Source: Terrabacter sp. Ter38
Lineage (GTDB): Bacteria; Actinomycetota; Actinomycetes; Actinomycetales; Dermatophilaceae
Assembly: GCF_024519435.1 (NCBI RefSeq)
Contig: NZ_JALJRZ010000010.1
Span: 1 to 64,000, forward strand
Direction: 5' to 3'
Length of the DNA stretch: 64,000 bases
Shown here: piece after piece, positions 4,618-63,685 of the stretch
Numbering within the stretch: the stretch's first letter is position 1
How the letters are laid out: the number at the start of each line of letters is the position of its first letter
Notes under the pieces: generated by a model
The model's database searches: none
Told to the model about the DNA's origin: nothing
The model's input: the letters and a program-made list of their open reading frames with translations, nothing else
Position numbers and translations under genes: made by a program

Positions 4618-6219
4618 TCAGCGTTTGCGGGTGCCGAAGATGCTGCGGGTGATCTCCCTGCCGAGGACCGTGCCGGCCGAGCGGAGCATCGACTTGAACG
4701 CCGTGCTGCCGGCGACCTGCGCGATGATGCTCGGCTCCTCCTTGGGGGCGCGCGTCGACGCGGGCGCAGGCGCAGGTCCCTGGGCGGCGGGTGCCGGAGC
4801 GGGGGCTGCCGGCGTCGCGGGAGCCGCAGCCTGCAACCGAGCGGTCAGCTTCTCGTAGGCCGACTCGCGGTCGACGACGTCGGCATACTTCGTCTTGAGC
4901 TGCGACGCTGCGATGACGGCGTCCATCGTCGCGGGCGACGAGGGGTCCATGAGGGAGTTCGGGGCCTTCATCCGGGTCCACGCGACGGGCGTCGGGACGC
5001 CCTTGTCCGACAGCACGGTGACGACGGCCTCGCCGATGCCGAGGCTCGTGAGGAGCTTCTCCATGTCGTAGGCCGTGTGCGGGTAGGTCGCGATCGCCTG
5101 CTTGAGCGCCTTGGCGTCGTCGGGGGTGAAGGCGCGCAGGGCGTGCTGGACGCGGTTGCCGAGCTGGGCGAGCACGCCCGACGGGACGTCCTTGGGCGAC
5201 TGCGTCACGAAGAAGACGCCGATGCCCTTGGAGCGGATGAGCCGGACCGTCTGCTCGATGGCCTGCAGGAACGCCTTGCTCGCGTCGTTGAACAGCAGGT
5301 GAGCCTCGTCGAAGAAGAAGACGAGCTTCGGCTTGTCGACGTCGCCCTCCTCGGGCAGGTCGTGGAAGAGGTCGGCGAGCATCCACATGAGGAAGGTCGA
5401 GAAGAGCTGCGGTCGGTCCTGCACCTGGGGCAGCTCGAGGCAGGAGATGATCCCCTTGCCGTCGGGTGCGGTGCGCAGCAGGTCGCTCGTCTCGAACTCG
5501 GGCTCGCCGAAGAAGGCCCCGGCGCCCTGGTCCTCGAAGGTGATGAGGTTGCGCAGGATGACGCCCGCCGTCGCGCTCGAGAGCCCGCCGAGGTCCTTGA
5601 GGTCGGCCTTGCCCTCGTCGGACGTCAGGTGGCTGATGACCGCGCGGAGGTCCTTGAGGTCGAGGAGCGCGAGACCGTTCTTGTCGGCGTAGTGGAAGAT
5701 CAGCCCGAGGCTGCTCTCCTGCGTGTCGTTGAGCCCGAGGACCTTGCTGAGCAGGGTCGGGCCGAAACCCGTGATCGTGGCGCGGATCGCGATGCCGTCA
5801 CCCTTGCCGCCGAGCGAGTAGAACTCGGTGGGGTATGCCGTCGCCGTCCACGGCATCCCGACGTCGGCCGCGCGGCTGGTGATCTTGTCGCCGCCCTCGC
5901 CGGGTGTCGCGAGACCCGACAGGTCACCCTTCATGTCGGCGAGGAAGACCGGGACGCCCTGGTCGGCCAGCTGTTCGGCCATGAGCTGGAGCGTCTTCGT
6001 CTTGCCGGTGCCGGTCGCGCCCGCGACGAGGCCGTGGCGGTTGAGGACGCTGAGCGGGATCTGCACCGGGGCGTCAGCGTGGGCCTGGCCGTCGACGACC
6101 GCGGCGCCGAGCTTGAGCACCCCGCCCTCGAACGCGTAGCCGGCCCGGATCTCGTCGATCTGGCTGGTGTCTCCCGTGCCACCCGTCTGAGGGGCTCCTG
6201 AGCCTGCAGTCTCGGTCAC
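4618..6219 (-). CDS. HerA/YjgR-type ATPase (DUF853)
   Basis: 533 aa from a GTG start. Residues 50-60 form the Walker A motif (GATGTGKTKT). LADMKGDLSGLA follows, and the Walker B is VFFFDEAHLLF. The arrangement matches the helicase HerA-like/DUF853 family of FtsK-HerA ATPases (E. coli YjgR), whose cellular role is not established. A Pro/Ala-rich linker (APATPAAPAPAPAAQGPAPA) precedes a basic tail conserved in the family (LRSAGTVLGREITRSIFGTR). The gene is monocistronic, with a hairpin downstream and a divergent gene upstream. Confidence 0.88.
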   Translation of the reverse strand: MTETAGSGAPQTGGTGDTSQIDEIRAGYAFEGGVLKLGAAVVDGQAHADAPVQIPLSVLNRHGLVAGATGTGKTKTLQLMAEQLADQGVPVFLADMKGDLSGLATPGEGGDKITSRAADVGMPWTATAYPTEFYSLGGKGDGIAIRATITGFGPTLLSKVLGLNDTQESSLGLIFHYADKNGLALLDLKDLRAVISHLTSDEGKADLKDLGGLSSATAGVILRNLITFEDQGAGAFFGEPEFETSDLLRTAPDGKGIISCLELPQVQDRPQLFSTFLMWMLADLFHDLPEEGDVDKPKLVFFFDEAHLLFNDASKAFLQAIEQTVRLIRSKGIGVFFVTQSPKDVPSGVLAQLGNRVQHALRAFTPDDAKALKQAIATYPHTAYDMEKLLTSLGIGEAVVTVLSDKGVPTPVAWTRMKAPNSLMDPSSPATMDAVIAASQLKTKYADVVDRESAYEKLTARLQAAAPATPAAPAPAPAAQGPAPAPASTRAPKEEPSIIAQVAGSTAFKSMLRSAGTVLGREITRSIFGTRKR

Positions 6220-6270
6220 GGTTCGAACTCTAGTGGCCGGTCGTCCACGTTCGACGCCTATGCTGACCCG

Positions 6271-6567
6271 GTGATTTTCAAGGCCGTCGGCGACTCGCGC
6301 CCGTACCCAGACCATGGACTCGAGACGACCAAGGACTGGTCGAACGTCCCGCCTCGGGTGGTGCAGCTCGGCGAGCTCATCACGACCAAGAGCACGCTCG
6401 ACCTGCGCGGCCTGCTCGCCGACGACTCGACGTTCTACGGGGACCTCTTCCCGCACTGCGTCGAGTGGGAGGGCGAGCTCTACCTCGAGGACGGGCTGCA
6501 CCGGGCACTGCGCGCCGCGCTGCAGCAACGTCCTGTCCTTCACGCCCGAGTCCTCGTACTCTCCTGA
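6271..6567 (+). CDS. Conserved actinobacterial protein (VapB-antitoxin-like annotation)
   Basis: 98 aa, GTG start. The sequence (MIFKAVGDSRPYPDHG, STFYGDLFPHCVEWEGELYL, EDGLHRALRAALQQRPVLHA) is typical of a small family that in Streptomyces and Mycobacterium sits directly upstream of a LytR_C protein, as here. Database entries often label it a VapB-family antitoxin, but no VapC toxin gene is next to it and no DNA-binding fold is obvious. The antitoxin label should be treated with caution. Conservation of the gene pair suggests a shared envelope-related role. Confidence 0.75.
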   Translation: MIFKAVGDSRPYPDHGLETTKDWSNVPPRVVQLGELITTKSTLDLRGLLADDSTFYGDLFPHCVEWEGELYLEDGLHRALRAALQQRPVLHARVLVLS

Positions 6568-6612
6568 CACGAGCCTGCCCGACCAGGGGCGACGACGGAC
6601 GAAGGAGCGGTG

Positions 6613-7149
6613 ATGTCGCAGGTCCTTGACAAGGACGACCGCACCTACCGGGTGCGGCGCCAGCGCCGGTCGACGATCGTGATCGCGGTCGTCCTGCTGA
6701 GCCTGGCGGGCGCGTTCTACTACGCCTCGACCTACTTCCGCGACACGACCCCCACACCGGGACCGTGCACGACGGAGGTGCCCGTCGCGCCGCTGCGTCC
6801 GGCCGACGTCAGCCTCAACGTCTACAACTCGACGACGCGCAAGGGGCTCGCTGCGGCGGTCGCCAAGGTCGCCGACACCCGTGGCTTCAAGGTCAAGGCC
6901 GTCGGCAACGACCCGAAGGACGCCGGCGTCAAGCAGGTCGCGCAGATCCGGTTCGGACCCGAGGGTGCGGCGTCGGCCCGTCTCGTGAAGACGCATGTGC
7001 CGCAGGCCGTCTACGTCAACGACAAGCGCAAGGGCGACACCGTCGACCTCGTCGTGGGCGCGGCCTGGAAGAACTTCGGGAAGGCGCCGGTCGTCGCGGT
7101 GCCCACCCAGACGCTGCGCCAGTGCCCGACGATCACCGTCCAGCCGTGA
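6613..7149 (+). CDS. LytR C-terminal-domain membrane protein
   Basis: 178 aa. An RRQRRSTIV stop-transfer region precedes one transmembrane helix (about residues 22-42, IVIAVVLLSLAGAFYYASTY). The extracytoplasmic part matches the LytR_C domain (SLNVYNSTTRKGLAAAVAKV, VKAVGNDP, AQIRFGPEGAASARLV). This domain occurs C-terminally in LytR-CpsA-Psr wall-polymer ligases; here it stands alone and lacks the LCP catalytic domain. The ATG at 6613 is preferred over GTG 6610 because GGAG lies 5 nt upstream. Confidence 0.85.
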   Translation: MSQVLDKDDRTYRVRRQRRSTIVIAVVLLSLAGAFYYASTYFRDTTPTPGPCTTEVPVAPLRPADVSLNVYNSTTRKGLAAAVAKVADTRGFKVKAVGNDPKDAGVKQVAQIRFGPEGAASARLVKTHVPQAVYVNDKRKGDTVDLVVGAAWKNFGKAPVVAVPTQTLRQCPTITVQP

Positions 7150-7157
7150 CACGAGCG

Positions 7158-7200
7158 TGAGTATGCCGTCCGGCGCGGTGTGCGCCGGACGGCATACTCA
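7158..7200. terminator. Bidirectional terminator built from paired GTATGCCGTC motifs
   Basis: Perfect 19-bp inverted repeat (TGAGTATGCCGTCCGGCGC and complement) with a GGTGT loop, between the convergent LytR_C and substrate-binding-protein genes. Each arm holds one GTATGCCGTC decamer. The whole hairpin, loop included, is identical to the one at 12576-12620. Confidence 0.85.
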
Positions 7201-7238
7201 GGGGCTCGGGGCTTGCCGGCCCCGCGCGGAGCGAGGGG

Positions 7239-8297
7239 TCAGCTGACCGGGGAGGCCGCCTCGACGAACTCGTTGGTGTAGGTCTTGGCCAGGTCGATGC
7301 TCTTGCCCTGGACCTTGGGGTTGAACTCGCCGAGCACGGCCAGACAGGTCTTGGGACCGTCCTGCGGCATGAGGCCGGTCGGGTTGAAGATCCCCTTCTC
7401 GCTGTCGAGCGCCTTGACGTAGGCGGCCTTGCCGACGCCCTTGTAGTAGGCGGCCGGCATCTTGTCGGCGATGGCCGCGCCGTCGTGCTGCTGGATCCAG
7501 GAGAGCGTCGAGACGTAGGCGTTGACGAGCTTCTGGACGGTCGCCTTGTTCTTGTCGACCCAGTCGGTCTGCATGTAGAGCGAGGTCGCCGGGTAGGTGC
7601 CCCCGAGTGCCGCCTTGGACCCGTCGGCCGTGCGCATGTCCATGAGAATGAACGCTGTGCCGTCCGAGACTGCCTGCGACACAGTCGGTTCCGTGGTCAT
7701 TCCGCAGTCGATGGCCTTCTGCTTCATGGCCGCGATGAAAGTCTGGCCCGCGCCGACGCCACGGCGAGTCTCCTGGGCGGGGTCGACGCCGTTCTTCCTG
7801 CTGAGGTACTGCGTCAGGAAGTCGGTCGAGGAGCCGGTGTCGGTGATGCCGAGCGAACGGCCCTTGAAGTCCGCGGGACTCTTGACGACACCCTTGAGGT
7901 CACTGCGACACAGCTCGACCTCGCCCGGGATCTGGAGCATCGAGACGACCGCCTCGGACGACTTGCCCTGAGCCTGCAGCGCGATGTTGTGGTCGTAGAA
8001 GCCGCCGACGCCCTGGACCTGGCCGGCGAGCATGTTCTGCGTCGCATCGCCGCCCGCGGGCTCGTCGACGAGGTCGACGTTGACGCCGATCTTGTCGTAG
8101 TAGCCCAGCTGCTTGGCCAGCATGAAGGGCAGGTAGATCTGCTTGCTCATGCCCCCGACCATGATGGTCACGGTCGGGGCGCTGGCGTCGACGGTGCCGG
8201 CGCTCGTCGGCGCGCCGGAGGCGTTGTTGGCGCAGGCCGCCATGGTGGTCGCGGCGAGGATGGCGGCGCCGGCGGCACCGATGCGCTTGGTGTTCAT
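7239..8297 (-). CDS. ABC transporter substrate-binding lipoprotein (NitT/TauT type)
   Basis: 352 aa. The signal peptide ends in a lipobox (TTMAAC, lipidated Cys about residue 21). The rest matches the NMT1/THI5-like SsuA/TauA fold (VGGMSKQIYLPFMLAKQLGY, GVNVDLVDEPAGGDATQNML, GVGAGQTFIAAMKQKAIDCG). It would capture the substrate outside the cell for the permease and ATPase encoded upstream in the same direction. Nitrate, sulfonate and thiamine-precursor systems share this fold, and no residue here settles the substrate. AAAGGAG precedes the chosen ATG. It is translated 57 bp after the permease gene. Confidence 0.9.
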   Translation of the reverse strand: MNTKRIGAAGAAILAATTMAACANNASGAPTSAGTVDASAPTVTIMVGGMSKQIYLPFMLAKQLGYYDKIGVNVDLVDEPAGGDATQNMLAGQVQGVGGFYDHNIALQAQGKSSEAVVSMLQIPGEVELCRSDLKGVVKSPADFKGRSLGITDTGSSTDFLTQYLSRKNGVDPAQETRRGVGAGQTFIAAMKQKAIDCGMTTEPTVSQAVSDGTAFILMDMRTADGSKAALGGTYPATSLYMQTDWVDKNKATVQKLVNAYVSTLSWIQQHDGAAIADKMPAAYYKGVGKAAYVKALDSEKGIFNPTGLMPQDGPKTCLAVLGEFNPKVQGKSIDLAKTYTNEFVEAASPVS

Positions 8298-8354
8298 GGA
8301 ACTCTCCTTTGAGTCTGGGTGCTGCAAGGTCGCGGGATGCGGTGGTCGTGCGGA

Positions 8355-9263
8355 CTACTCGACGGCGGCACCTCCGTGGGTCTGCGGGGGCCGCCAGCGC
8401 AGCAGGCGCCGCTCGAGCAGGGTGATGAGCGCCTCGGCCGCCAGGGCGATGACGGCGACGAGGACCATGCCGGCCAGCACGCCGTTCATGTCGAAGTTGT
8501 TCTGCGACGAGCGGATGAGCAGGCCGAGGCCCTGGTTGGCGCCGAGGATCTCGCCGACCAGCGCTCCGATGAGCGCGAATCCGAAGCTGATGTGCAGACT
8601 CGCGAGGATCCACGTGAACGCCGAGGGCAGCACGACGCCGCGGGTCACCTGCCACCGCGATGCCCCGAGCAGCCGGGCGTTGGCGATGAGGTTGCGGTCG
8701 ACCTCACGGGCGCCCTGGAAGGCGTTGAAGAAGACGCCGAAGAAGACGAGCACGACCGCGAGGATCACCTTGGACTGGATCCCGAAGCCGAAGGCGACGG
8801 TGAAGATCGAGCCGAGGATGATGCGGGGGATCGAGTTCGCTGCCTTGAGGAACGGGGCGAAGAGCTCGGAGAGGAGCCGGACGCGGCCGAGGGCGATGCC
8901 GCAGACGACGCCGAGGATCGAGCCGATGATGAAGCCGAGCACGGCCTCCTCGAGCGTGACGAGGATCTGGGCGCCGAGCGAGCCCTGGCTCGTTCCGACG
9001 GTGAACCAGTCGCGCAGGTCGGCCCAGACGCCCTCCGGCTCCCCCCAGAAGAAGGGGTCGACGATCTTGGCGTTGACGCAGGCCTGCCAGGTGGCGAGCA
9101 GGACGACGACGATGGCGAGCCTGGCCCCGGCAAGCACCGTGCGACGCCGGCGCGCGCGTGTCCGGGCCGACGGGGCCGAGGGGGTGGAGGAGGTGGCGCC
9201 ATCGACCGGGACGTCGGGACGCGGCGCCGCGACCGTCTGGGGCTGGGTGGGCGTGTCGATCAT
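8355..9263 (-). CDS. ABC transporter permease (NitT/TauT, SsuC-like)
   Basis: 302 aa. The cytoplasmic N-terminus ends in RARTRARRRR, followed by about six transmembrane helices. The binding-protein-dependent transport EAA loop is visible around VEGAREVDRNLIANARLLGA (as FNAFQGAREVDRNLIANARL), followed by ITRGVVLPSAFTWILASLH-like sequence. Its ATG overlaps the ATPase stop by 4 nt (ATGA), so the three transporter genes are one operon: ATPase, permease, binding protein. Confidence 0.92.
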   Translation of the reverse strand: MIDTPTQPQTVAAPRPDVPVDGATSSTPSAPSARTRARRRRTVLAGARLAIVVVLLATWQACVNAKIVDPFFWGEPEGVWADLRDWFTVGTSQGSLGAQILVTLEEAVLGFIIGSILGVVCGIALGRVRLLSELFAPFLKAANSIPRIILGSIFTVAFGFGIQSKVILAVVLVFFGVFFNAFQGAREVDRNLIANARLLGASRWQVTRGVVLPSAFTWILASLHISFGFALIGALVGEILGANQGLGLLIRSSQNNFDMNGVLAGMVLVAVIALAAEALITLLERRLLRWRPPQTHGGAAVE

Positions 9264-10069
9264 GACGCCACCTCCGTCGCCCCCGTCGTGCGGGCGTACG
9301 CCTCGGCGACCTCGGCGCGCAGCGCCTCCCAGATCTGCTCGTAGAGCTGGGTGAAGCGCGGGTCGAAGCGGATCTCCTGCACGATGCGGGGGCGTGGCAG
9401 GTCGATCTCGAACTCGGCCTTGACCGTGCCGGGACCGGCGGTGATGACGACGACCTTGTCGGCGAGGGCGATGGCCTCCTCGAGGTCGTGCGTGACGAAG
9501 ACGACGGCCGGCTTGGTCTGGTCCCAGAGGTTGAGCAGCTCGGTCGACATGATCGCCCGGGTCTGCACGTCGAGCGCGCTGAACGGCTCGTCCATGAGCA
9601 GGACGCGGGGCTGGTTGATGAGCGACTGCGCGAGGGCGACCCGCTTGCGCATGCCTCCCGAGAGCTGGTGGGGGTAGCGGTCCTCGAAGCCGCTGAGGCC
9701 GACGCGCCGCAGCCAGTCCCGGGCCAGGGCCGTGGCCTCGGAGCGGCTCGCCCCGCGGTAGACGGGTCCCGCCGCGACGTTGTCGAGGACGGAGCGCCAG
9801 GGGAAGACGGCGTCCTGCTGGAAGACGAATCCGGTGCTCGTGTCGATCCCGCGGACCTGCTCGCCGTGGACGAGAGCCTCTCCGCGAGAGGGGCGCTCGA
9901 GCCCCGAGATCAAGGTGAGTGTCGTGGACTTGCCGCAGCCGGTGGGTCCGACGACGGCGCAGAACTGACCGTCCTCGACCGTCAGTGACAGGTCCTCGAT
10001 GGCGGTGTAGGTGCCGCCGTCCGCCGTGGCGAACTTCTTGGTGACGTTGCGTAGCTCGATGGCAGTCAT
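9260..10069 (-). CDS. ABC transporter ATP-binding protein (NitT/TauT, SsuB-like)
   Basis: 269 aa. Walker A is GPTGCGKST (about residues 41-49), the signature is LSGGMRKRVALAQ, Walker B is RVLLMDEPFSALD, and the switch His is in VVFVTHDLEEAIALAD. The Q-loop sequence VFQQDAVFPWRSVLDNV is typical of SsuB/TauB proteins. The ATG at 10069 has GAGGAGAAAGGG upstream. It is divergent from a two-component system across about 210 bp, which suggests that system controls the operon. Confidence 0.93.
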   Translation of the reverse strand: MTAIELRNVTKKFATADGGTYTAIEDLSLTVEDGQFCAVVGPTGCGKSTTLTLISGLERPSRGEALVHGEQVRGIDTSTGFVFQQDAVFPWRSVLDNVAAGPVYRGASRSEATALARDWLRRVGLSGFEDRYPHQLSGGMRKRVALAQSLINQPRVLLMDEPFSALDVQTRAIMSTELLNLWDQTKPAVVFVTHDLEEAIALADKVVVITAGPGTVKAEFEIDLPRPRIVQEIRFDPRFTQLYEQIWEALRAEVAEAYARTTGATEVAS

Positions 10070-10279
10070 GTGGCCCCGCCCTTTCTCCTCGTTGAGTGGC
10101 GTCACCGTAGGAGCGGGGTGGGTCGCGCCGGAATGCTTGTGATCGTTGGTTCCGATAGCCGCGTTACCAGTGGTTTTGTGCAATCTGCTCAGCCATGCTG
10201 GGAAGGGCGCCGACGACGGCGTCGCCGGGCCGCCACCGGCCGTCGGGTGGGTGATGACCACGCAGAGCTGAGGAGTCGT

Positions 10280-11887
10280 ATGCCGCCTCTGGGCAGGACG
10301 CTTGCCGCGCGGATCCTCCTCGCCGTGCTGGGGATCGTCGTGGTGACCCTCGCCGTGGGCTTCGCCCTCTTCGCCCGGCTGACGTCCCAGACGGCCGACA
10401 CGCGCGCCATCGAGCAGGCGACCGGGATCGCGGTCACCCTCGGGCGGGTGCCCCAGATCGCAGAGGAGATCGTGAGGGGCGACCCGACCCACGTGCTTCC
10501 GGCCCTCGGGGCGCAGGTGAGGAGCGCGACGGGTGCCTCCTATGTCGTCATCATCGACCGCAGGGGCGTGCGCTACTCGCACCCCAACCCGGCGCTCATC
10601 GGACAGCGCATCGAGGAGCCCGTCGCCGCACTCGACGGCCAGGTGCACACCGGCATCGACGAGGGCAGCCTCGGGCGGTCGGCGAACGCCCGCGCCCCCA
10701 TCGTCGACGCCTCGGGGCGGAGCGTCGGCGAGGTGTCGGTCGGCATCCTCGAGTCCGAGGTCGGGGTGCGGCTCAACGCCGAGGTGCTCGACATCGCGCT
10801 CTACGCCGGCGTCGCCCTCGCCCTCGGGGTCGCGGCCTCGCTGCTGCTCGCCCGGGCGATCAAACGAGTGACCTTCGGGGTCGAGCCGGCCGAGATCGTC
10901 GCGCTGATGCAGGAGCGCGAGGCGATGCTGCACGGCATCCGCGAAGGGGTGCTCGCGGTGGACGCCAAGGGAGTCGTCAACGTGCTCAACGACGAGGCGC
11001 GGCGACTGCTCCGGATCGCGGGGACGGGGCTCGGCAGGCGCGTCGAGGACGTCGTCCCGGCCGGGCGACTTCGTCGCATCATCACGGGCGAGCTCGAGGG
11101 CACCGACCTCGTCGCCGTCACGGACGACAACCTCCTCGTGCTCAACCGGATGCCCGTGCTCGTCGCGGGTCGCAACACCGGGTGGGTCGTCACGATCCGC
11201 GACCGCACCGAGCTCGAGGCGCTCGTGCGCCAGCTCGACTCGATGGAGAGCCTGTCGACCGCCCTTCGGGCGCAGGAGCACGAGTTCTCCAACCGGCTGC
11301 ACGTGCTGTCGGTCCTGCTCGAGCTGGGCGAGGTGGAGGAGGCGACCCGCTACAGCCGCGAGCTGCAGGCAGAGACGGCCCTGGCCAGCGAGGAGATCCG
11401 GGCGCACGTCGGCTCACCGGTCATCGCCGCGCTGCTGCTCGCCAAGATGACCGTCGCGGCCGAGCGCGATGTCGTCGTGCGGCTCGACCCCACCAGCCGG
11501 CTCGCAGCCGGAGCCGACGGCGACCTGCCCGTCGTCACGGTCCTGGGCAACCTCATCGACAACGCCGTCGACGCGGTCGCCGACGACCCTGCCTCGGTCG
11601 GCCGTCACCCCCGCGGCGAGGTCGTCGTGCGGCTCGAGCGCACCGACGACGCCCTCCAGCTGACCGTCACCGACAGCGGGCCCGGCATCCCCGACGAACG
11701 CCTCGACGACGTCTTCCTCGACGGCTACTCGACCAAGGAACCGCGGGGCGCCATGCGCCGCGGAGTCGGGCTCGCTCTCGTGCACCGGCTCGTGACGCGC
11801 GCCGGTGGCACGATCGGGGCGAGCTCGCCGGGCGGCGCGAGGTTCGAGGTCCGTCTGCCGGTCCGGGTCCACGAAGGAGTCACATGA
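10280..11887 (+). CDS. CitA/DcuS-family sensor histidine kinase
   Basis: 535 aa. TM1 is at about residues 12-34 and TM2 at 180-200. They enclose an extracytoplasmic CACHE/PASC-type sensor with the conserved RYSHPNPALIGQ motif. A PAS domain (GIREGVLAVDAKGVVNVLND) follows, then the phosphoacceptor His in HEFSNRLHVLSVLLELG, which is characteristic of citrate/C4-dicarboxylate kinases, and an HATPase domain (NLIDNAVDAV, DSGPGIP, RGVGLALVHRLV). The AGGAG at 10271 supports the start, whose ATG lies inside a GTATGCCG motif. Its ligand is probably a small carboxylate or the transporter's substrate (inference). Confidence 0.92.
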   Translation: MPPLGRTLAARILLAVLGIVVVTLAVGFALFARLTSQTADTRAIEQATGIAVTLGRVPQIAEEIVRGDPTHVLPALGAQVRSATGASYVVIIDRRGVRYSHPNPALIGQRIEEPVAALDGQVHTGIDEGSLGRSANARAPIVDASGRSVGEVSVGILESEVGVRLNAEVLDIALYAGVALALGVAASLLLARAIKRVTFGVEPAEIVALMQEREAMLHGIREGVLAVDAKGVVNVLNDEARRLLRIAGTGLGRRVEDVVPAGRLRRIITGELEGTDLVAVTDDNLLVLNRMPVLVAGRNTGWVVTIRDRTELEALVRQLDSMESLSTALRAQEHEFSNRLHVLSVLLELGEVEEATRYSRELQAETALASEEIRAHVGSPVIAALLLAKMTVAAERDVVVRLDPTSRLAAGADGDLPVVTVLGNLIDNAVDAVADDPASVGRHPRGEVVVRLERTDDALQLTVTDSGPGIPDERLDDVFLDGYSTKEPRGAMRRGVGLALVHRLVTRAGGTIGASSPGGARFEVRLPVRVHEGVT

Positions 11888-12561
11888 TCCGCGTCCTCGT
11901 CGTCGACGACGACTACCACGTCGCGCACGCGCACGCGCTGAGCGTCGCGCGCGTGCCCGGCTTCGAGGTGGTGGGCGAGGCGCACACGGGGACCGAGGCG
12001 CGCTCGCTCGTCTCGTCGGTGGCGCCCGACCTGCTGCTCCTCGACATGTACCTGCCGGACTTCAGCGGGCTCGACCTCGTGCGCCAGGTCGCCGCGTCGG
12101 GCGAGCGGGTGCCGGACTTCCTGCTCGTCACCGCGGCGCGCGACATCGAGTCGGTGCGCACGGCCATGCAGCTCGGGGCGTTCTACTACCTCGTCAAGCC
12201 GTTCAGCTTCGCCGCCCTGCGCGAGCAGCTCGAGGGATACCGGGCGTGGGCCGAGCGCATCGACCGCGCCCCCGAGGCCGACCAGCACGTCGTCGACGCC
12301 CTCTACAGCCTGCGCGGCGCGCCACCGCGCCGGGCGGTCGCGACCCGGAGCCTGCAGCCGACGATGGCCCGCGTGCTCGAGATCGTCGTCGGCGCCCCAG
12401 CGCCGATCGGAGCAGCGGAGGTCGCCGAGATCCTCGGGGCCAGCCGCCCGACGGCGCAGCGCTACCTCGCCGGGCTGGTCGAGAAGCAGCTGCTCGAGCT
12501 GGATCTCACCTACGGCACCACCGGCCGGCCCGAACACCGCTACCTCCCGCGCCGCCGGTGA
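11884..12561 (+). CDS. CitB/DcuR-family response regulator
   Basis: 225 aa. The receiver domain has the acidic pocket VVDDDYHVA, phosphoacceptor Asp in LLLLDMYLPDFSGLDLV, and Thr and Lys in LLVTAARD and YYLVKPFSF. The C-terminal helix-turn-helix (EVAEILGASRPTAQRYLAGL) is the type found with CitA/DcuS kinases. The start overlaps the kinase stop (ATGA), so the two are translationally coupled. A terminator follows directly. The probable target is the divergent ABC importer operon. Confidence 0.92.
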   Translation: MIRVLVVDDDYHVAHAHALSVARVPGFEVVGEAHTGTEARSLVSSVAPDLLLLDMYLPDFSGLDLVRQVAASGERVPDFLLVTAARDIESVRTAMQLGAFYYLVKPFSFAALREQLEGYRAWAERIDRAPEADQHVVDALYSLRGAPPRRAVATRSLQPTMARVLEIVVGAPAPIGAAEVAEILGASRPTAQRYLAGLVEKQLLELDLTYGTTGRPEHRYLPRRR

Positions 12562-12575
12562 GCAGCGAACCAGGC

Positions 12576-12620
12576 GTGAGTATGCCGTCCGGCGCGGTGT
12601 GCGCCGGACGGCATACTCAC
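12576..12620. terminator. Bidirectional terminator built from paired GTATGCCGTC motifs
   Basis: Perfect 20-bp inverted repeat with GGTGT loop, identical to the hairpin at 7158-7200. It lies between the convergent response-regulator and phosphoesterase genes and carries one decamer per arm. Confidence 0.85.
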
Positions 12621-12643
12621 GCTGTGCTGCCCGTCCGGACGGC

Positions 12644-13675
12644 TCAGGGGGTGTAGGGCACGCGCTGCCACGACAGCACGTGCTCGGCGCCGGGACGGTT
12701 CACGGTGACCTCGAGGAAGTCCGTGTTGTTGCTCGACCCGTCGACCGTGACCCGGGTGAGGTTGTCGGCCGACCCCCGTACGCCGTAGAAGTCGAGCCAC
12801 CTCGATCCTGTCGCGAGCGGACGGTCGGAGTTGTAGACGTGGCTGTCGCCATTGAAGAGGTAGACCTCGCCGTCGAAGGTGTTCGACTGCTCGACGAGCT
12901 CGCGCACGAGGGGCTGGAAAGCAGAGTTGTCGGCCCACGTCACGGCATACGTGGGATCGAACATGTCGGCCTGGAGGAAGAGCGCGACGGCGCGGTCGTG
13001 GCGCTGCCGGGCTCCGGCGAAGGCCGAACGGACCTGTGCCACGGCGTTGTCCGTGCGAGCCTGCTCCTCGGCGACCTGCCGGGCCGTGGGTGAGGTGAAG
13101 CCCAGCTCGGGCCAGGGGAGCAGGCCGTTGTTGCTGCCGACGACGTGGAGGGTGGCGATGTCGACGCCCTGGCGTCGGAAGGAGACGTTCTCGGGGAAGC
13201 CGGCGGCCGCCTGCGACGCGACGGTCATGTCGGCCCCGAGTGTGTGGCCGGCTCGCGGGAAGAAGGTCGACCGGACAGCGGCGAGGCGCTCGAGCGGGTC
13301 GTAGGTGCCGTTGTTGGTGCGGTGGCAGTCGGTCCACTCGTTGTCGCCGGGCGTGTAGACGAGCGGCGTCGTGAAGCGGTCGAACTGCGTGCGGATCATG
13401 GAGAAGTACTCGTTCGTGCACGTCGACGAGCCGTTCTTGATGTCGCCGACGTGGATGGTGAAGGAGAGGTCGGGGGTCGCGTTGATCTGGCCGACCCACC
13501 TCGGGAAGGCCGCGACCTGCGCGTCTCCGTACGGCACGTCGCCGATGACGGCGAAGTGGTAGTGGCCGTCCTTGTCCTGGCCGGGGACATCGGCGGCGGA
13601 GGCCGCCGTGGCAGCAGGCAGGACGACGAGTGCGGCTGCGACGGCCGCCAGGGCTGGGGTGCGAGAGAGGTGCAT
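12644..13675 (-). CDS. Secreted metallophosphoesterase
   Basis: 343 aa with a Sec signal peptide (about residues 1-28, ending ATAASAADV). Calcineurin-like metal ligands are visible in order: FAVIGDVPYGD, IHVGDIKNGS, YTPGDNEWTDCH and LFNGDSHVYN. The last departs from the usual GHxH, so metal coordination at that end may differ. The substrate is unknown. The gene is monocistronic, sharing the downstream hairpin with the response-regulator gene. Confidence 0.85.
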   Translation of the reverse strand: MHLSRTPALAAVAAALVVLPAATAASAADVPGQDKDGHYHFAVIGDVPYGDAQVAAFPRWVGQINATPDLSFTIHVGDIKNGSSTCTNEYFSMIRTQFDRFTTPLVYTPGDNEWTDCHRTNNGTYDPLERLAAVRSTFFPRAGHTLGADMTVASQAAAGFPENVSFRRQGVDIATLHVVGSNNGLLPWPELGFTSPTARQVAEEQARTDNAVAQVRSAFAGARQRHDRAVALFLQADMFDPTYAVTWADNSAFQPLVRELVEQSNTFDGEVYLFNGDSHVYNSDRPLATGSRWLDFYGVRGSADNLTRVTVDGSSNNTDFLEVTVNRPGAEHVLSWQRVPYTP

Positions 13676-13769
13676 GACTGCAGTTCTCCCGCACCGCCGT
13701 CGAACGGCGCCACCACCAGAACGTGAACGTCAGGCGTCGCGAGGCTGGGAGGTCGCTGGGACCCCGCCG

Positions 13770-14777
13770 TCAGAGCTGGACGAGCGTGGCCACCATGAGC
13801 GCCTTGATGGTGTGCATCCGGTTCTCGGCCTGGTCGAAGACGACCGAAGCCTCGGACTCGAAGACGTCGTCGGTGACCTCGAGCTCCTTGAGGCCGAACT
13901 GCTCGTGCACGTCCGTGCCGACCTGCGTCTCGAGGTCGTGGAAGGCCGGGAGGCAGTGCATGAACTTGACCCGCGGATTGCCCGTCAGCGCAAGGAGGTC
14001 CGCATTGACCTGGTAGGGGCCGAGGAGCTCGATGCGCTCGGCCCACACCTCCTTGGGCTCGCCCATCGACACCCAGACGTCGGTGTGGACGAAGTCGACG
14101 CCGCGCACGCCCTCGGCCACGTCCTCGGTCAGCGTGACGCGCGCCCCGGTCTCGGCGGCATACCTCCTCGCGACGGCGACGACGGCGTCAGACGGCCACA
14201 GGGAGCGGGGCGCGACGATGCGCACGTCCATCCCGAGCAGGGCGCCCGTGACGAGCAGCGAGTTGCCCATGTTGAAACGGGCGTCACCGACGTAGGCGTA
14301 GGCGATCTCGTCGTCGGGCTTGTCCGCGTGCTCGCGCATCGTCAGCGCGTCGCAGAGGGACTGGGTCGGGTGCCAGTCGTCGGTGAGGCCGTTCCACACC
14401 GGCACTCCCGCGAAGGCGCCGAGCGTCTCGATGACGTCGTGGCGGGCACCGCGGTACTCGATGCCGTCGTAGAAGCGTCCGAGCACGCGTGCCGTGTCCT
14501 TGGCCGACTCCTTGTGGCCCATCTGCGAGCCGACCGGGTCGAGGTAGGTCGTGCTCGCGCCCTGGTCGGCGGCGGCCACCTCGAAGGCGCAACGGGTGCG
14601 GGTCGAGGTCTTCGCGAAGAGCAGCGCGACGTTCTTGCCGGTGAGACGTCGCTGCTCGCGGCCCTCGCGCTTGGCGGCCTTGAGCTCGGCGGCGAGGTCG
14701 AGCAGCGCCCGGAACTCGTCGGGCGTCAGGTCGATCTCCTTGAGCAGGTTGCGGCGGTGGAGTGCGGCGAGCGACAT
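13770..14777 (-). CDS. argF: Ornithine carbamoyltransferase
   Basis: 335 aa. It transfers carbamoyl from carbamoyl-phosphate to ornithine to give citrulline, or runs the reverse in the deiminase pathway. The carbamoyl-phosphate loop [19 protein letters not shown] and the ornithine-site MHCLPAFHD are intact. Length and the [17 protein letters not shown] segment resemble catabolic ArcB-type enzymes more than the ~310-aa anabolic actinobacterial ArgF. No arcA, arcC or other arginine gene is adjacent, so the physiological direction cannot be decided from context. Confidence 0.92.
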
Positions 14778-14821
14778 GCACGTGATGGTTTCAGGCGCGG
14801 TCGCCGCGCGGCAATCCAGTC

Positions 14822-15820: not shown

Positions 15821-15904
15821 GCGGTGATTGTCCACCGGGGTCGCGCGGGGTGCCCGGGGAGGCCGATTTCTTGTGCGGGGTCCGCCTCCGGTAACCTGCG
15901 CGAC

Positions 15905-15989
15905 GGAGGATTCGCATAGTGGCCTAGTGCGCACGATTGGAAATCGTGTTGGGATAAAACCCTCGGGGGTTCAAATCCCCCATCCTCCG
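15905..15989 (+). tRNA. tRNA-Ser (GGA)
   Basis: Cloverleaf with acceptor GGAGGAT/ATCCTCC, anticodon arm CGATT-GGA-AATCG, a long class II variable arm and the T-arm GGGGGTTCAAATCCCCC. The encoded tail is GCC, so CCA is completed post-transcriptionally. A truncated IS copy starts 12 bp downstream. A tRNA-Ser close to ffs and dnaX is common in actinobacteria. Confidence 0.95.
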
Positions 15990-16000
15990 CCCTTGTCCTA

Positions 16001-16402: not shown

Positions 16403-16574
16403 CGGCGGGTGGTCCTGCTCGCCGTCATCTCGCTCGTCGCCGAGCGTCGGTTGTCCCCGCACGTCAACGGAGTCCGAGAGGTCGAGCACCGCCGACCGCC
16501 AGCCCGGCCGGGAGCCCGGCCACGGCTGGAGGGGCGATTTCCGGCTGACGTCGGGGGCGGCATACACTTGCCGT

Positions 16575-16664: not shown

Positions 16665-16696
16665 CTTTTTCCTTCGCGCTCGGTGGCGGCCTCCGG

Positions 16697-17779: not shown

Positions 17780-17784
17780 GCTAT

Positions 17785-17812: not shown

Positions 17813-17949
17813 AACCCTCGAGGGCTCGGTCTCACCACCCGAGCCTCGTCCCGAAAACCATCGCAGACCGCCGTCGAGGCGGTCGGCCGCACGGACGGCC
17901 GGCCCGCTTCAGCCGCCCCGCGTCGGTCGTCCCCTGAGAGGCTTGCTCC

Positions 17950-22141: not shown

Positions 22142-22154
22142 CGTCGGTGCGCGC

Positions 22155-55660: not shown

Positions 55661-55849
55661 GGGTCCGACCGTCGCGGGGTCTAAAGCGGAGGGCGAGCGG
55701 CATACGCCCGTCTGTGGACGAGCCGCCAGCGACGGGTGGGGCTGTGGACACCCGACGCGGAGTCGAAGTGATGGCGGCACCGAAGGGGTTGCCGGGGTCA
55801 CCTCGAACCGGGGAAGGAGGGGGAGGGGAGCGAGGGCTGCGGGTTTACC

Positions 55850-56695
55850 TCAACCGGATGGGAGGAGGGAGCTCACGGCTGCAAGGACCGGCCTGAAGGC
55901 TTCTGACTGGGGGTCGATGACGGCGAAGTGGTCGGCTCCCGGCACGACCTGCTCGGTCACGTCGCCGCCGGCCGCCTTCGCCTTCGAGACGTAGTCGTCG
56001 GCGACGCCCAGCGGCACGGTGTCGTCGTCGGCGCCGTTGACGAGCCGCACCGGCACCTTCGGCGGCAGGGTCGACATCGGGTCGGCCGAGGTCCACGCCG
56101 CCGTGCCGGGTCCGGACCCGACGAAGTCCCGCGTGGCGTCGGACCCGAGGTGCAGCCGGTCCGCGGCTCCGAGGTCGACGACCCCGGCCAGCGACACGAC
56201 TCCCGCGATCCCGCGCTCGCGGGCCCAGGTCTGGCCGGCGGCCCACGCGACGAGGTGTCCCCCGGCGGAGTGGCCGACGAGGACGAGCGGCTTGGGCAGG
56301 TCGGGCTGCGACGCGATCGACGCGACGAGGTCGCGCATGTCGTCGAGGGTCCCGGGGACGCCACCACCCGGCATACCGACTCGGCGGTACTCCGCGAGCA
56401 CCACGTGGTAGCCCGCCCCCGCGAAGGCGCGAGCCTCGGGGAGCGCGTGCTCGCGGTCGTACTGCGCCCGCCAGAAGCCGCCGTGGACGACGACGACCGT
56501 GCCGTTCGCGGCCGGGGCGCCGGCGGCCGGCGGGATGACGTCGTAGACCTGCGCGGGGTCGCTGCCGTAGGAGCGCGTCGAGGCGCTCGCGGGGGACGTC
56601 GTCGAGGGGCTGCTCGTCATGGGCGTCATGGTGCCACCCGCGTCACCGACGCACCCCGAGAGAGCCGTGGTGCCACTGAGTAGGGTGATGGCCAT
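55850..56695 (-). CDS. Alpha/beta hydrolase, probable lipoprotein
   Basis: 281 aa. HGG oxyanion motif VVVVHGGFWRAQYD, nucleophile elbow VLVGHSAGGHL, Asp in NGADDDTVPLG and His in PGADHFAVIDP form a full catalytic triad of the kynurenine-formamidase/HSL-like esterase type. From ATG 56695 the N-terminus has a lipobox (TALSGC), but it lacks the usual positive charges. ATG 56639 would give a cytoplasmic form. If 56695 is used, it overlaps the start of the divergent DUF4177 gene. Confidence 0.8.
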   Translation of the reverse strand: MAITLLSGTTALSGCVGDAGGTMTPMTSSPSTTSPASASTRSYGSDPAQVYDVIPPAAGAPAANGTVVVVHGGFWRAQYDREHALPEARAFAGAGYHVVLAEYRRVGMPGGGVPGTLDDMRDLVASIASQPDLPKPLVLVGHSAGGHLVAWAAGQTWARERGIAGVVSLAGVVDLGAADRLHLGSDATRDFVGSGPGTAAWTSADPMSTLPPKVPVRLVNGADDDTVPLGVADDYVSKAKAAGGDVTEQVVPGADHFAVIDPQSEAFRPVLAAVSSLLPSG

Positions 56696-57328: not shown

Positions 57329-58227
57329 GTGCAGGGGACGGCACGATGACGGCAGGTGACCGTCAGGTGCCCGGCACCGCGGGTCGCCGGTTCCCCCTGA
57401 CCACGACGCCCGGCATCTCCGACACGGCCACCCGCTGGCTCGCCGGGGAGCGCTGGGACGAGGCGGAGCCCCGCCGCGCCAGCACCGTGATGCTCGTGCG
57501 CGACGGTGTCGGCGGCGTCGACGGCGTCGACGGACCCGAGGTCTTCATGCTGCGGCGCGTCTCCGAGATGGAGTTCGCGCCGAGCATGATGGTCTTCCCC
57601 GGCGGTTCCGTCGACGAGCGCGACGGCGAGATCGGCCTGCCGTGGGCGGGTCCTTCCCCGTCCGAGTGGGCCGACCGGCTCGGCTGCTCGCCCTCGGTGG
57701 CGCAGATGTACGTCGCGGCCGCGATCCGCGAGGTCTTCGAGGAGTGCGGAGTGCTCCTCGCGAGCCCGTCGGCGAGCGGACCGCTCGCCATGGTCGAAGG
57801 CCCCGAGTGGCTCGACGTCCGCCTCGCGCTCGTCGACCGCCGGCTCTCACTGGCCGACGTGCTCCGGGACGAGGGCCTCGTCCTGCGTTCCGACCTCATC
57901 GTCGCCAAGGCCCACTGGCTGACCCCGGTCTTCGAGCCTCGCCGCTACGACACGTGGTTCTTCGCCGCGCTCATGCCGCCCTTCCAGGTGGCCGACGGCG
58001 AGACCACCGAGGCCGACGAGGCGACGTGGGTCGTGCCCTCCGAGCTGCTGAGGGCGTATGCCGCCGGGTCGGCCCTCATGCTGCCCCCGACGGTCGTGTG
58101 CGTGGAGGAGATCCGCGACGCGCCTTCTGCCGCAGACGTGGTCGTGCACAGTGAGCACCTTCCGCTCATCATGCCGGAGGTCGTCGACGGCCCCGGCGGG
58201 CCGGCCATGGAGATCGTCGAACGATGA
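57325..58227 (+). CDS. NUDIX hydrolase
   Basis: 300 aa, GTG start overlapping the ridA stop; ATG 57346 is an alternative. A NUDIX-like segment reads FPGGSVDERDGEIGLP, then AAIREVFEECGVLL. The box is interrupted by about 45 residues between the GG and REXXEE parts, as in the NUDT19/CoA-type mitochondrial relatives. The substrate is unknown. A tandem Gly-Val-Asp stretch (GVGGVDGVDGPE) is in the N-terminal part. It forms an operon with ridA and the MBL hydrolase. Confidence 0.87.
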   Translation: MSAGDGTMTAGDRQVPGTAGRRFPLTTTPGISDTATRWLAGERWDEAEPRRASTVMLVRDGVGGVDGVDGPEVFMLRRVSEMEFAPSMMVFPGGSVDERDGEIGLPWAGPSPSEWADRLGCSPSVAQMYVAAAIREVFEECGVLLASPSASGPLAMVEGPEWLDVRLALVDRRLSLADVLRDEGLVLRSDLIVAKAHWLTPVFEPRRYDTWFFAALMPPFQVADGETTEADEATWVVPSELLRAYAAGSALMLPPTVVCVEEIRDAPSAADVVVHSEHLPLIMPEVVDGPGGPAMEIVER

Positions 58228-58267: not shown

Positions 58268-59065
58268 GTGATCGGGACCGCGGCCGACCCGGGCTGGCAC
58301 GGCGGTGTCACGAGCGAGCGCGCCGAGTGCGTGCTCTGCCCCAACCCGTCGCCGATGACCCTCGACGGCACGAACACGTGGCTGCTCGCCGAGCCGGGCT
58401 CTGACGAGGTCGTCGTCGTCGACCCGGGCCCGCTCGACGAAGGTCATCTGCAGCACGTGCTGGCGCGGGTGGCCGAGACCGGGCGCCGGGTCGCGCTGAC
58501 CCTGCTCACCCATGGGCACGACGACCACGCCGAGAGCGCCGACCGGTTCCACGAGCTGACCGGTGCGCCGGTGCGCGCCTTCGGGCGCGGCCACGACGAC
58601 GTCTGGGCCGGCGAGACCATGACGGTCGGGGGGCTCGAGATCCTCGCCGTCGAGACGCCCGGCCACACGAGCGACTCCTTCTCGTTCGTCCTGCCCGCCG
58701 ACAACACCCTCCTCACCGGCGACACGATCCTCGGGCGCGGCACGACCGTCGTCGCCTGGCCCGACGGAAGCCTCGAGTCCTACCTCGCCTCGCTCGACCG
58801 CATCGAGGCCCTGACCCGGGCCGGTGACGTGACGAGTCTGCTCCCGGGCCACGGGCCGTTCGTCCCCGATGCGGCCGCCACGGTGACCTTCTACCTCAGG
58901 CACCGCGCCGAACGGCTGGACCAGGTGCGCGACGCGGTCGCCCGGGGTGCGCAGACGGCATACGCCGTCGTCGAGGACGTCTACGCCGACGTGCCGCGGA
59001 GCGTGTGGCCTGCGGCGGAGCTGTCCGTGCAGGCGCAGCTCGAGTACCTCCGCACCCACCCGTGA
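58268..59065 (+). CDS. MBL-fold hydrolase (Rv3677c-like)
   Basis: 265 aa, GTG start with AGGAGG upstream. THGHDDHAESADRF is the metal motif; ETPGHTSDSFSF, LLTGDTILGRG and LLPGHGPFVPDA supply the rest. It is of the LACTB2/glyoxalase II-like type. It corresponds to M. tuberculosis Rv3677c in the crp neighbourhood. A GTATGCCGTC motif encodes Thr-Ala-Tyr near its C-terminus. Confidence 0.92.
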   Translation: MIGTAADPGWHGGVTSERAECVLCPNPSPMTLDGTNTWLLAEPGSDEVVVVDPGPLDEGHLQHVLARVAETGRRVALTLLTHGHDDHAESADRFHELTGAPVRAFGRGHDDVWAGETMTVGGLEILAVETPGHTSDSFSFVLPADNTLLTGDTILGRGTTVVAWPDGSLESYLASLDRIEALTRAGDVTSLLPGHGPFVPDAAATVTFYLRHRAERLDQVRDAVARGAQTAYAVVEDVYADVPRSVWPAAELSVQAQLEYLRTHP

Positions 59066-59739
59066 GGGAGTGGGAGGCTCCGACGGTGCACGGCATGGAC
59101 GAGCTCGCGGCTGCGGCGATCGGCCTCGTCGGTGACCGCAGGCGGGTCGTGCTCGGCATCGCCGGGGCGCCGGGGGCGGGCAAGTCGACTCTCGCGGAGG
59201 CGCTGCTCGAGGCCGTCGCGGCCCGCGCGGGTGCGGACTGGGTCGCCCACGTGCCGATGGACGGCTTCCACCTCGCTGACGTCCAGCTCGACCGGCTCGG
59301 CTCGCGGTCGCGCAAGGGTGCGCCGGACACCTTCGACGCCGACGGGTATGCCGCCCTGTTGCGTCGTCTCGTGGAGTGGCCCGACGCGTGGGTCTACGCG
59401 CCCGGTTTCGAGCGGACGCTCGAGCAGCCGATCGCGGCGGCCGTGGTCGTGCCCCCGGCCGCCCGCCTCGTCGTGACCGAGGGCAACTACCTGCTGCTGC
59501 CCGAGGAGCGGTGGGAGCGGGCCAGGGCCCAGATGGCCGAGGTCTGGTTCGTGTCGGGGGACGACGGCCTGCGGCGGTCGCGGCTCGTCGAGCGACACGT
59601 CCGGTTCGGCAAGGCGCCGGCCGAGGCCGAGGCCTGGGTGGCCCGCAACGACGACGTCAACGCGGCGCTCGTCCTGGCCACCGGCGGCGCCGACCGCCTC
59701 GTGCGCAACGGCCCGGACGGCTGGACCTTCAGCGTTTGA
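59062..59739 (+). CDS. Nucleoside/pantothenate-kinase-like P-loop kinase
   Basis: 225 aa, GTG start overlapping the preceding stop; ATG 59095 is a plausible alternative. Walker A is GIAGAPGAGKSTLAEALLEA. HVPMDGFHLADVQLDRLGSR and VVTEGNYLLL are typical of the uridine kinase/PanK-like family of fructose-transport-system kinases (FrcK/YggC). The phosphate acceptor is unknown. It is absent from the mycobacterial version of this cluster as I know it. Confidence 0.88.
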   Translation: MREWEAPTVHGMDELAAAAIGLVGDRRRVVLGIAGAPGAGKSTLAEALLEAVAARAGADWVAHVPMDGFHLADVQLDRLGSRSRKGAPDTFDADGYAALLRRLVEWPDAWVYAPGFERTLEQPIAAAVVVPPAARLVVTEGNYLLLPEERWERARAQMAEVWFVSGDDGLRRSRLVERHVRFGKAPAEAEAWVARNDDVNAALVLATGGADRLVRNGPDGWTFSV

Positions 59740-62048: not shown

Positions 62049-62219
62049 GTCGGACTCCTCCCGAGTGCAGGCATGACGTACCCACCTCGGGTTCGCCGTG
62101 CGCGCAACCTTGGACACGCCCGGGACGGACCCGCACCGAAACCTGGACGATCCCGACCCGACCGACCGACCCACGGAGGCGGACAGCGGGTGACAGCGCG
62201 GCGGCATACAGTGTCGTCC

Positions 62220-62945
62220 GTGTCCCCCCGAGCCCTCGTGATCGACGACGAGACCCCCGTGGCGCGGACCCGGCGTGCCCGGAAGATGTACCGCTCCCTC
62301 CATGAGCGCTACCCGTACGCCCACTGCGAGCTCGACTTCACCACGCCGCTCGAGCTGCTCGTCGCGACGATCCTGTCGGCGCAGACGACCGACGTCGGGG
62401 TCAACAAGGTGACGCCGATCGTCTTCGCGAAGTACCCGACGGCTGCCGACTACGCGAACGCCGACCGCGCCGAGCTCGAGACGATCATCCAGCCGACCGG
62501 CTTCTACCGCGCCAAGACCGACTCGCTCATCAAGCTCGGGATCGCCCTCGTCGAGCGTTTCGACGGCGAGGTGCCGCCGCGCCTCAAGGACCTCGTGACG
62601 CTCCCGGGCGTGGGCCGCAAGACGGCCAACGTCGTGCTCGGCAACGCCTTCGGCGTCCCCGGCATCACCGTCGACACCCACTTCGGCCGCCTGGCCCGCC
62701 GCTTCGGTTGGACCGAGGAGGAGGACCCGGTCAAGGTCGAGCACGAGGTCGGCGCGCTCTTCATGCGCAAGGACTGGACGATGCTCAGCCACGTCGTCAT
62801 CTTCCACGGCCGCCGCACGTGCCACGCGAAGAAGCCGGCCTGCGGGGCGTGCCCGGTCGCGCGCTGGTGCCCCAGCTACGGCGCCGGCGAGACCGACCCC
62901 GAGAAGGCGGCGAAGCTCCTGAAGTACGAGCTGGCGCCGAAGTGA
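62220..62945 (+). CDS. nth: Endonuclease III
   Basis: 241 aa. A DNA glycosylase/AP lyase for oxidised pyrimidines. HhH motif [17 protein letters not shown] with the catalytic Lys, catalytic Asp in [11 protein letters not shown], and the iron-sulfur loop [17 protein letters not shown] (C-X6-C-X2-C-X5-C). The GTG at 62220 is chosen by homology; GTG 62211 and 62190 are alternatives. It corresponds to Rv3674c. It overlaps the next gene by GTGA. Confidence 0.95.
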
Positions 62946-63685
62946 CCCACACGCTCAGCCGGATCGCGTATGCCGGCCGGTCGGGTTCCATCGACCCCTC
63001 CCCGACGCACGGGGCCGGGGCCGTGCCGCGCCCGGCCTGGATGGACGAGCTCGCGGTGCGGCTCGAGGAGGTCGCGCCGGAGTGGTTCTCCCGTTTCCTG
63101 CCACCGGAGGAGGGTGGCCGCGAGTCGGCGGTCCTCATCCTCTTCGGCCCCCCGCCCGCCGGCGCCGGCGACGACGGCGAGCACGTCGTGCTCATCGAGC
63201 GCTCCCACACCATGCGCACCCAGCCGGCCCAGATCGCGTTCCCGGGCGGCTCCCGCGACCCCGACGACGACGACCTCGTCGCCACCGCGCTGCGCGAGGC
63301 CGAGGAGGAGACGGGCGTCGACCCGGCGGGTGTCGACGTCGTCGCCCAGCTGCCCTCGCTCTTCCTCGCGCCGGCCCAGTTCGTCGTCGCGCCGGTGCTC
63401 GGCTGGTGGGCGCAGCCGTCGCCGATCGGGGTCCGCGACCCGGCCGAGGTGCACGACGTGCTCTCGGTGCCGGTCTCGCACCTCATCGACCCGGCCACCC
63501 GCTTCTCGGTGACCCACCCCTCGGGCTACGTCGGACCGGGCTTCGACCTCGACCATCTACTCCTGTGGGGCTTCACCGCCGGGCTGATCAGCAGCGTCCT
63601 GGAGCTCGGCGGACTCTCCCGGCCGTGGGACCCTGAGATCACGCGTGAGCTTCCCGAGCGCTACCTCGGAGGGAGGCGCTCATGA
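62942..63685 (+). CDS. NUDIX hydrolase (CoA diphosphatase-like)
   Basis: 247 aa, GTG start. [20 protein letters not shown] precedes a standard NUDIX box ([20 protein letters not shown] then EETGV). The former sequence resembles the NuCoA motif of NudL/CoA pyrophosphatases. It corresponds to Rv3672c. It is coupled to nth upstream and to the MarP gene downstream by 4-nt overlaps. Confidence 0.92.

Follow-up and report, generated by a model that had tools for sequence, protein, structure and literature searches.

A putative DNA uptake sequence with genus dialects in Terrabacter and related actinobacteria

What maintains a short asymmetric word in dozens of copies, both in and between genes, along an actinobacterial chromosome? 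The question is raised by the first 64,000 nucleotides of contig NZ_JALJRZ010000010.1 of Terrabacter sp. Ter38 (assembly GCF_024519435.1). In this whole stretch, called the window below, the octamer GTATGCCG occurs 40 times (shuffle mean 0.71, largest 3), with 19 and 21 copies on the two strands. A previous reading based on the letters of this DNA (the sequence-only reading) had estimated about 40 octamers, and balanced orientations for a hexamer (21 versus 22), at an assumed GC content of about 72% (71.3% as measured), and all 17 of its coordinates for the longer decamer GTATGCCGTC are exact (shuffle mean 0.06, largest 2). It likened the word to the DNA uptake sequences (DUS) of Neisseria and the uptake signal sequences (USS) of Haemophilus. 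According to the evidence set out here, GTATGCCG probably belongs to a DNA uptake sequence system new to the actinobacterial phylum, in which the word would promote the uptake of DNA bearing it.

The host genome (G000; 4.83 Mb in 54 contigs) holds 2,069 copies of GTATGCCG, 1,036 in one orientation and 1,033 in the other, versus 210 copies of the control, which is the same word read backwards. The decamer GTATGCCGTC is found 640 times and its backward word 22 times. More than 1,000 genome-wide copies had been predicted, and a lack of enrichment, named beforehand as evidence against uptake, is not what the genome displays. The backward word is an imperfect control, and two related octamers, GGATGCCG and GTACGCCG, exceed it 2-5-fold even in many genomes with another main word.

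Base composition and codon usage were taken into account in a 464-kb sample of the host genome (the window plus 400 kb, about 10% of the total). GTATGCCG and the words overlapping it head the lists of overrepresented words when a second-order Markov model is used, and almost all of the lists obtained with a fourth-order one. A stricter null was obtained by shuffling synonymous codons inside genes and applying a first-order model between genes. Under these nulls GTATGCCG is the top octamer of the sample (z 51.6), as had been predicted: 107 sense copies are observed in genes (5.8 expected), 40 antisense copies (2.9 expected) and 57 intergenic copies (1.06 expected). An artefact of codon usage is rejected, since synonymous shuffles yield 5.8 sense copies and not 107.

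The unit of the repetition is the octamer, and the decamer is its commonest extension. Intergenic DNA contains 59 exact copies of GTATGCCG and at most 8 of any one-mismatch neighbour. Preferences in the flanks are weak (above all T or C in the first position past the core and C in the second, with a maximum of about 0.5 bits per column). The sample is 88% coding and carries 147 genic copies and 61 that are intergenic or straddle a gene edge, so intergenic DNA is roughly three times as rich in the word as the genes are. Convergent intergenic regions are the richest (1.73 copies per kb; tandem 0.98, divergent 0.97). Within the window the genic share had been overestimated: instead of about 27 copies in genes, a simple gene caller of our own places 22 of the 40 in genes and 18 between them. 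The frame NNG-TAT-GCC-G is used by 96 of the 107 sense genic copies in the sample, which means that a rare TAT codon is paid for each copy so read.

Maintenance of the word was assessed by comparison within the genus. The window was aligned to the syntenic regions of six other genomes of the genus, which cover 44-81% of it and are 83-94% identical to it in the aligned parts. At positions with the same amino acid, a TAT codon inside the word has stayed TAT in 48 of 52 comparisons, versus 9 of 36 for other TAT codons (Fisher p 4.7e-11). For all codons ending in A or T the corresponding figures are 77 of 86 in the word and 1,386 of 3,921 elsewhere (p 5.4e-25). The difference is visible in each of the six genomes, although the same sites recur across them and the p-values therefore overstate the independence of the comparisons. 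GTATGCCG sites are maintained beyond protein constraint. In addition, sense GTACGCCG, which is one synonymous change away from GTATGCCG, is scarce in the genes of G117 (1 vs 7.9 expected), G141 (2 vs 10.7) and G079 (2 vs 6.2), and in those of G009 it is found 6 times (9.6 expected). Its genic scarcity in genomes of the GTATGCCG dialect looks as if near-miss words had been converted into sites.

Dialects of the word were sought by blind word scans in 16 relatives (100 kb per genome) and then by pattern counts over 186 genomes of the family. The top word of the blind scans differs from genus to genus. CGAAGGGG reaches 1,198-2,588 copies in all 16 genomes of genus g27 and 2,589-3,180 in all three of g36, with at most 396 in the other 167 genomes; the same 19 genomes hold 0-5 copies of GTATGCCGTC. 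A named locus of Janibacter indicus carries 5 copies of CGAAGGGGG in 12 kb, and g27 is therefore probably Janibacter. GGATGCCG is the abundant word of g51 (3,949 copies), g9 (3,816 and 3,838) and all four genomes of g15 (2,099-4,480), with at most 1,336 copies in the other 179 genomes. GTACGCCG is present in 2,111-4,185 copies in seven genomes of g35, g3, g5 and g7, and in 1,011-1,463 copies in four more. Its excess in G090 (g35) survives the synonymous null (29 vs 7.3, 41 vs 7.6 and, between genes, 13 vs 0.95). The signal in g3 (z 11.7) is no stronger than that of codon-pair words elsewhere, so the case for this genus rests on 2,366 and 2,618 copies versus about 155-161 for the controls. GTATGCCG, GGATGCCG and GTACGCCG are mutually 1-2 bases apart and have G.A.GCCG in common. 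These three words and CGAAGGGG are all non-palindromic, and none is polarised where tested. The 100-kb samples of g47, g38, g11 and one g5 genome (G011) yielded no clear word.

Several side observations concern the dialects. In g15, g33 and g5, genomes of the same genus use different dialects or mixtures of two words, apparently dialect switches in progress. G184 (g53, L193-L197) and G099 (g39, L223-L227), from genera that lack the usual word, have a weak excess of GGACGCGT and of CGACGCGT and the palindromic GACGCGTC; these weak signals of ACGCGT type may be missed dialects or something else. The top word of G014 (g6, L218-L222) is GGCGTACG (16 intergenic copies vs 0.8), which occurs alongside GACGTACG; both overlap the GTACGCCG dialect, and the core is apparently different. 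A separate intergenic repeat, CTACTCGA, is found in G090 (L039-L043) 13 times between genes (0.25 expected) and twice in genes.

The distribution of the Terrabacter word follows the lineage. All nine genomes of the genus that were covered, including G000, carry 454-713 copies of GTATGCCGTC. Across 186 genomes of the family, from 53 genera, many genera are rich in the decamer and others nearly lack it. Lineage restriction had been predicted. Among 297 sampled genomes of the order, more than 600 copies of GTATGCCG are found in 15 of the 25 genomes of the host's own family, and the maximum in the 272 others is 177. One of these 15 genomes, G041, reaches just 2.5 times its own control, and none of the 272 exceeds four times its control, save one with 3 copies versus 0. 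Terrabacter sp. Root85 is the host's nearest relative by ComEC, at 88% identity. Further genomes that bear the word are, or group by ComEC with, Arsenicicoccus, Ornithinimicrobium, Knoellia, Humibacillus and Phycicoccus elongatus, in a tree from which G052 was left out and in which 10 of 34 inner branches are weak.

Some copies of the word are paired. Facing copies of GTATGCCG 5-35 bp apart form 34 pairs in G000, and the control word forms none. The inner stems mostly differ among the 34 pairs, with a few pairs resembling each other, and the hairpins are therefore not copies of one element. The window contains four tight pairs. An identical 37-bp perfect hairpin, GTATGCCGTCCGGCGC-GGTGT-GCGCCGGACGGCATAC, occurs at 7161-7197 (as GTATGCCGTC...GACGGCATAC) and at 12580-12616, in both cases between convergent genes. 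Another GTATGCCGTC...GACGGCATAC pair at 40275-40321 forms a perfect hairpin with a 21-bp stem, also between convergent genes, and the pair at 23504-23535 forms a hairpin between tandem genes, so that three of the four are placed between convergent genes by our gene caller. A looser inverted pair of GTATGCCG is located in intergenic DNA at 42537-42600 (42537 on the plus strand, 42593 on the minus strand). The four tight pairs had been described as terminators. The pairs are real and fold very stably (folding z-scores from -5.9 to -9.4), and a terminator role for them is plausible; none of the four stems is followed by a run of T, and a simple terminator pattern scan of 6800-24000 does not list the three hairpins lying there.

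Which known kind of chromosomal word could account for these features? A Chi-like recombination hotspot, read by an end-processing enzyme of the RecBCD/AdnAB type, would suit the asymmetry and the genus specificity seen here, as Chi words are short, asymmetric, abundant and specific to a genus or lineage. Known Chi words are, however, strongly co-oriented with replication, and the 20-kb segments of G000 display no strand polarity (chi-square 11.5, 23 degrees of freedom, p=0.98). Polarity is likewise absent in 10 of 10 genome/word sets (p 0.15-0.98; 0.15-0.97 for the nine sets besides G000). The sequence-only reading had argued against polarity from its own counts and had named it as a finding that would speak against uptake. 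Because of this lack of polarity, Chi is unlikely, the more so as the intergenic excess and the 34 inverted pairs would be left unexplained by it; Chi and the polar sequences that orient FtsK (KOPS) are rejected as identities of these unpolarised words. A second candidate, for which no polarity is needed, is a double-stranded site recognised by an abundant protein of nucleoid, chromosome-organising or regulatory type that came to differ in specificity between genera. A structural protein of this kind would be in keeping with the intergenic excess and with gaps between GTATGCCG sites that are somewhat more regular than random (coefficient of variation 0.75, a value as low in 0.15% of 2,000 simulated sets, for which it is 0.93). 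Yet about 2,000 mostly genic, synonymously maintained copies in which all eight bases are required represent a copy number and sharpness unusual for nucleoid-type proteins, and that whole genomes use an unrelated word, with some 1,200-3,200 copies each, is hard to explain without a drive from DNA transfer. On account of copy number, sharpness and the wholesale replacement of dialects, a site of this type is quite improbable.

A highly iterated word upheld by DNA methylation or repair biology is another candidate, for which the model is HIP1, the highly iterated palindromic octamer of cyanobacteria. Like HIP1, GTATGCCG is a highly iterated octamer; it is lineage-limited and has many copies in and between genes. 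Unlike HIP1, GTATGCCG, GGATGCCG, GTACGCCG and CGAAGGGG are not palindromes. An element of this sort is very improbable for that reason, and a palindromic HIP1-like element is rejected on the word sequence itself. As for a mobile repeat family of the repetitive extragenic palindrome or miniature inverted-repeat transposable element type, it could produce the identical hairpins at 7161 and 12580 and the few other pairs that are alike. The flanks of single copies, however, share nothing past the octamer except the weak preferences mentioned above, most of the 34 pairs differ in stem and loop, and the majority of copies are genic. With flanks so unrelated, this explanation has next to no chance of being right. 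A single mobile repeat family had also been named as a finding that would overturn the idea of uptake; comparison of flanks and pairs leads to its rejection.

The DUS/USS-like interpretation, on the other side, gathers these features together. Enrichment, balanced orientation, lineage restriction and the presence of uptake machinery (described below) support it at the level of sequence, as do the genus dialects, the retention of synonymous sites and the many, mostly different hairpins. About 2,000 asymmetric, unpolarised copies per genome, dialects, hairpins, synonymous retention and family members without the word constitute the signature of DUS and USS at the sequence level, and it is from this signature that we infer uptake sequences. 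In the literature covered, self-specific uptake sequences are known from just two families, Neisseriaceae and Pasteurellaceae.

The closest parallel is provided by Neisseriaceae. According to the available part of a survey of this family by Frye et al. (PMC3630211), DUS occur in 943 to 5,918 copies per genome and in eight dialects, which track the lineages and are a single base or a few bases apart; one genome has two dialects and five members have no obvious DUS. Copy number, lineage dialects, a mixed genome and members without the word all find their counterparts here, while DUS are 10-12-mers with a CTG core and the Terrabacter word is an octamer without CTG (the same part of PMC3630211). 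Further differences are the high-GC monoderm host, its Tad/Flp loci, the lack of a PilM match in G000, the one unrelated dialect CGAAGGGG and an uptake role that here is an inferred one. Descent from Neisseriaceae DUS is rejected, as GTATGCCG contains no CTG and the flanks are not conserved. The AT-DUS of Neisseria shares ATGCCGTC with the Terrabacter decamer. The TGAA that follows it in AT-DUS is not conserved after the decamer, so the match looks like a coincidence. The USS of Pasteurellaceae likewise have dialects following phylogeny, and they also act in hairpin terminators, to which the predicted hairpins of the Terrabacter pairs may be compared; USS consist of a 9-bp word with a GCGG core and an A/T-rich extension, and no such extension exists at GTATGCCG (available part of PMC12616744).

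Competence machinery with a pilus is encoded by the host. A search for ComEA, ComEC and pilus genes had been proposed, and all of them are present in G000, with Tad/Flp loci as the pilus systems. ComEA adjoins ComEC (above the Pfam cut-off, below that of NCBIfam). The first Tad/Flp locus comprises two Flp pilins, TadE, a TadG-like protein, CpaB, a CpaE-like protein, TadA, TadB and a TadC-like protein. One Flp and the other proteins of this locus except the TadC-like one were scanned in Pfam; ComEA, ComEC, Flp, TadE, TadG-like, CpaB, TadA and TadB have Pfam support. The second tad locus is of typical actinobacterial form, and encodes a TadZ/Ssd-like protein that scores below cut-off, a TadA that exceeds the cut-off of TIGR03819, a Flp-like pilin, a TadE-like protein (L012:361-729) and a TadF-like protein (L012:726-1211), the Flp-like, TadE-like and TadF-like proteins being named by place and look. 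Loci with TadA-type ATPases number four in G000: C1:94900 (L010), C1:120915 (L011), C3:109083 (L228) and C11:55965 (L229), of which both loci on C1 look like complete tad clusters. PilM, the sole type IVa pilus marker searched, is not found in G000 and is positive in 7 of 184 family genomes. ComEC is present in 179 of these 184 genomes, and the TadA family in 182 (167 above the curated cut-off), word-less genera included.

A similar set is known from Micrococcus luteus, the transformation of which runs on Flp pili of tad clusters together with ComEA/ComEC, a combination said to be frequent in actinobacteria (available part of PMC4322843). Its ComEA, ComEC and two tad clusters without type IV pili are much like those of G000 (available parts of PMC4322843 and PMC8467076). 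The phrase "uptake sequence" is absent from the available main text of these two papers on M. luteus transformation.

By analogy with ComP, the reader of the word could be TadE, TadF or ComEA, which are candidates only. Competent cells would bind double-stranded DNA bearing GTATGCCG via ComEA or via an extracellular Tad/Flp pilus receptor, and the pilus would deliver the bound DNA to ComEA. Then ComEC would pass one strand inward for recombination. If word-bearing DNA were taken up more often than other DNA, sites could accumulate and persist chromosome-wide in both orientations by molecular drive, and drift or exchange of receptor specificity could lead to slow rewriting of the whole genome into a new dialect. 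We put at even chances the more specific proposal that such a system arose independently in monoderm actinobacteria, is read by a Tad/Flp minor pilin or ComEA instead of a type IVa minor pilin, and has at least four dialects, of which CGAAGGGG resulted from outright replacement of receptor specificity. Since CGAAGGGG is unrelated to the other words, some 1,200-3,200 sites per genome would have been written anew in that replacement.

A number of points weigh against uptake sequences. CGAAGGGG has no obvious core in common with GTATGCCG, GGATGCCG and GTACGCCG, unlike the dialects of known DUS and USS, which keep an inner core (available part of PMC12616744). Genera g47, g38, g11 and g39, which lack a clear word, have ComEC and TadA as well; machinery and word thus do not track simply, and among the 184 family genomes the presence of neither protein separates word-bearing from word-less genera. 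For the receptor only candidates can be named. The stricter null is itself imperfect, words of codon-pair type attaining z about 16 in G000, so that dialect calls at z 10-12 rest mainly on whole-genome counts. Depletion of the near-miss GTACGCCG is weak in G000 genes (33 vs 49.9 sense) and reversed between them (9 vs 3.2 expected). Genic copies of GTATGCCG in G000 favour sense over antisense (107 vs 40), an excess that is inconsistent among relatives, and the spread of copies over 4-kb bins is not significantly more even than random (variance/mean 0.82, a value reached or undercut in 20% of simulations). Among the open-access matches listed, none reported an experiment on uptake or transformation in these species. 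Among those listed for an uptake sequence in actinobacteria (open-access papers), none concerned one by its title or the start of its abstract, and of the 20 matches listed among 643 papers containing the letters of the octamer, none deals with an uptake sequence to judge from title or abstract.

Should uptake sequences be confirmed, sequence-coded recognition of "self" DNA would have evolved independently in high-GC Gram-positive bacteria with another pilus, and natural transformation would be a widespread and continuing process in the family. The joint change of thousands of sites and their receptor could then be studied in many natural switches of dialect, including several inside a single genus. 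The right octamer on donor DNA may also ease the transformation of these soil and sludge bacteria.

Single copies of the word are scattered over the window. The decamer GTATGCCGTC lies in genes on the plus strand at 5833-5842, 21989-21998, 33177-33186 and 45927-45936, and on the minus strand at 37771-37780, 49236-49245 and 58954-58963; one more plus-strand copy (35508-35517) is intergenic. Genes also contain GTATGCCG on the minus strand at 4881-4888, 12943-12950, 14156-14163, 20115-20122, 21859-21866, 27238-27245, 53014-53021 and 56369-56376, and on the plus strand at 29067-29074 (in a dnaX-like gene), 37717-37724, 49385-49392, 52797-52804, 58056-58063, 59346-59353 and 62968-62975. Intergenic copies of the octamer are located on the plus strand at 10278-10285 and 22858-22865, and on the minus strand at 16558-16565, 31631-31638, 35594-35601, 55698-55705 and 62202-62209. 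That at 16558-16565 directly precedes the gene of the bacterial small signal recognition particle RNA (16573-16671). The octamers at 20115, 22858, 29067 and 33177 are present in all six aligned genomes of the genus.

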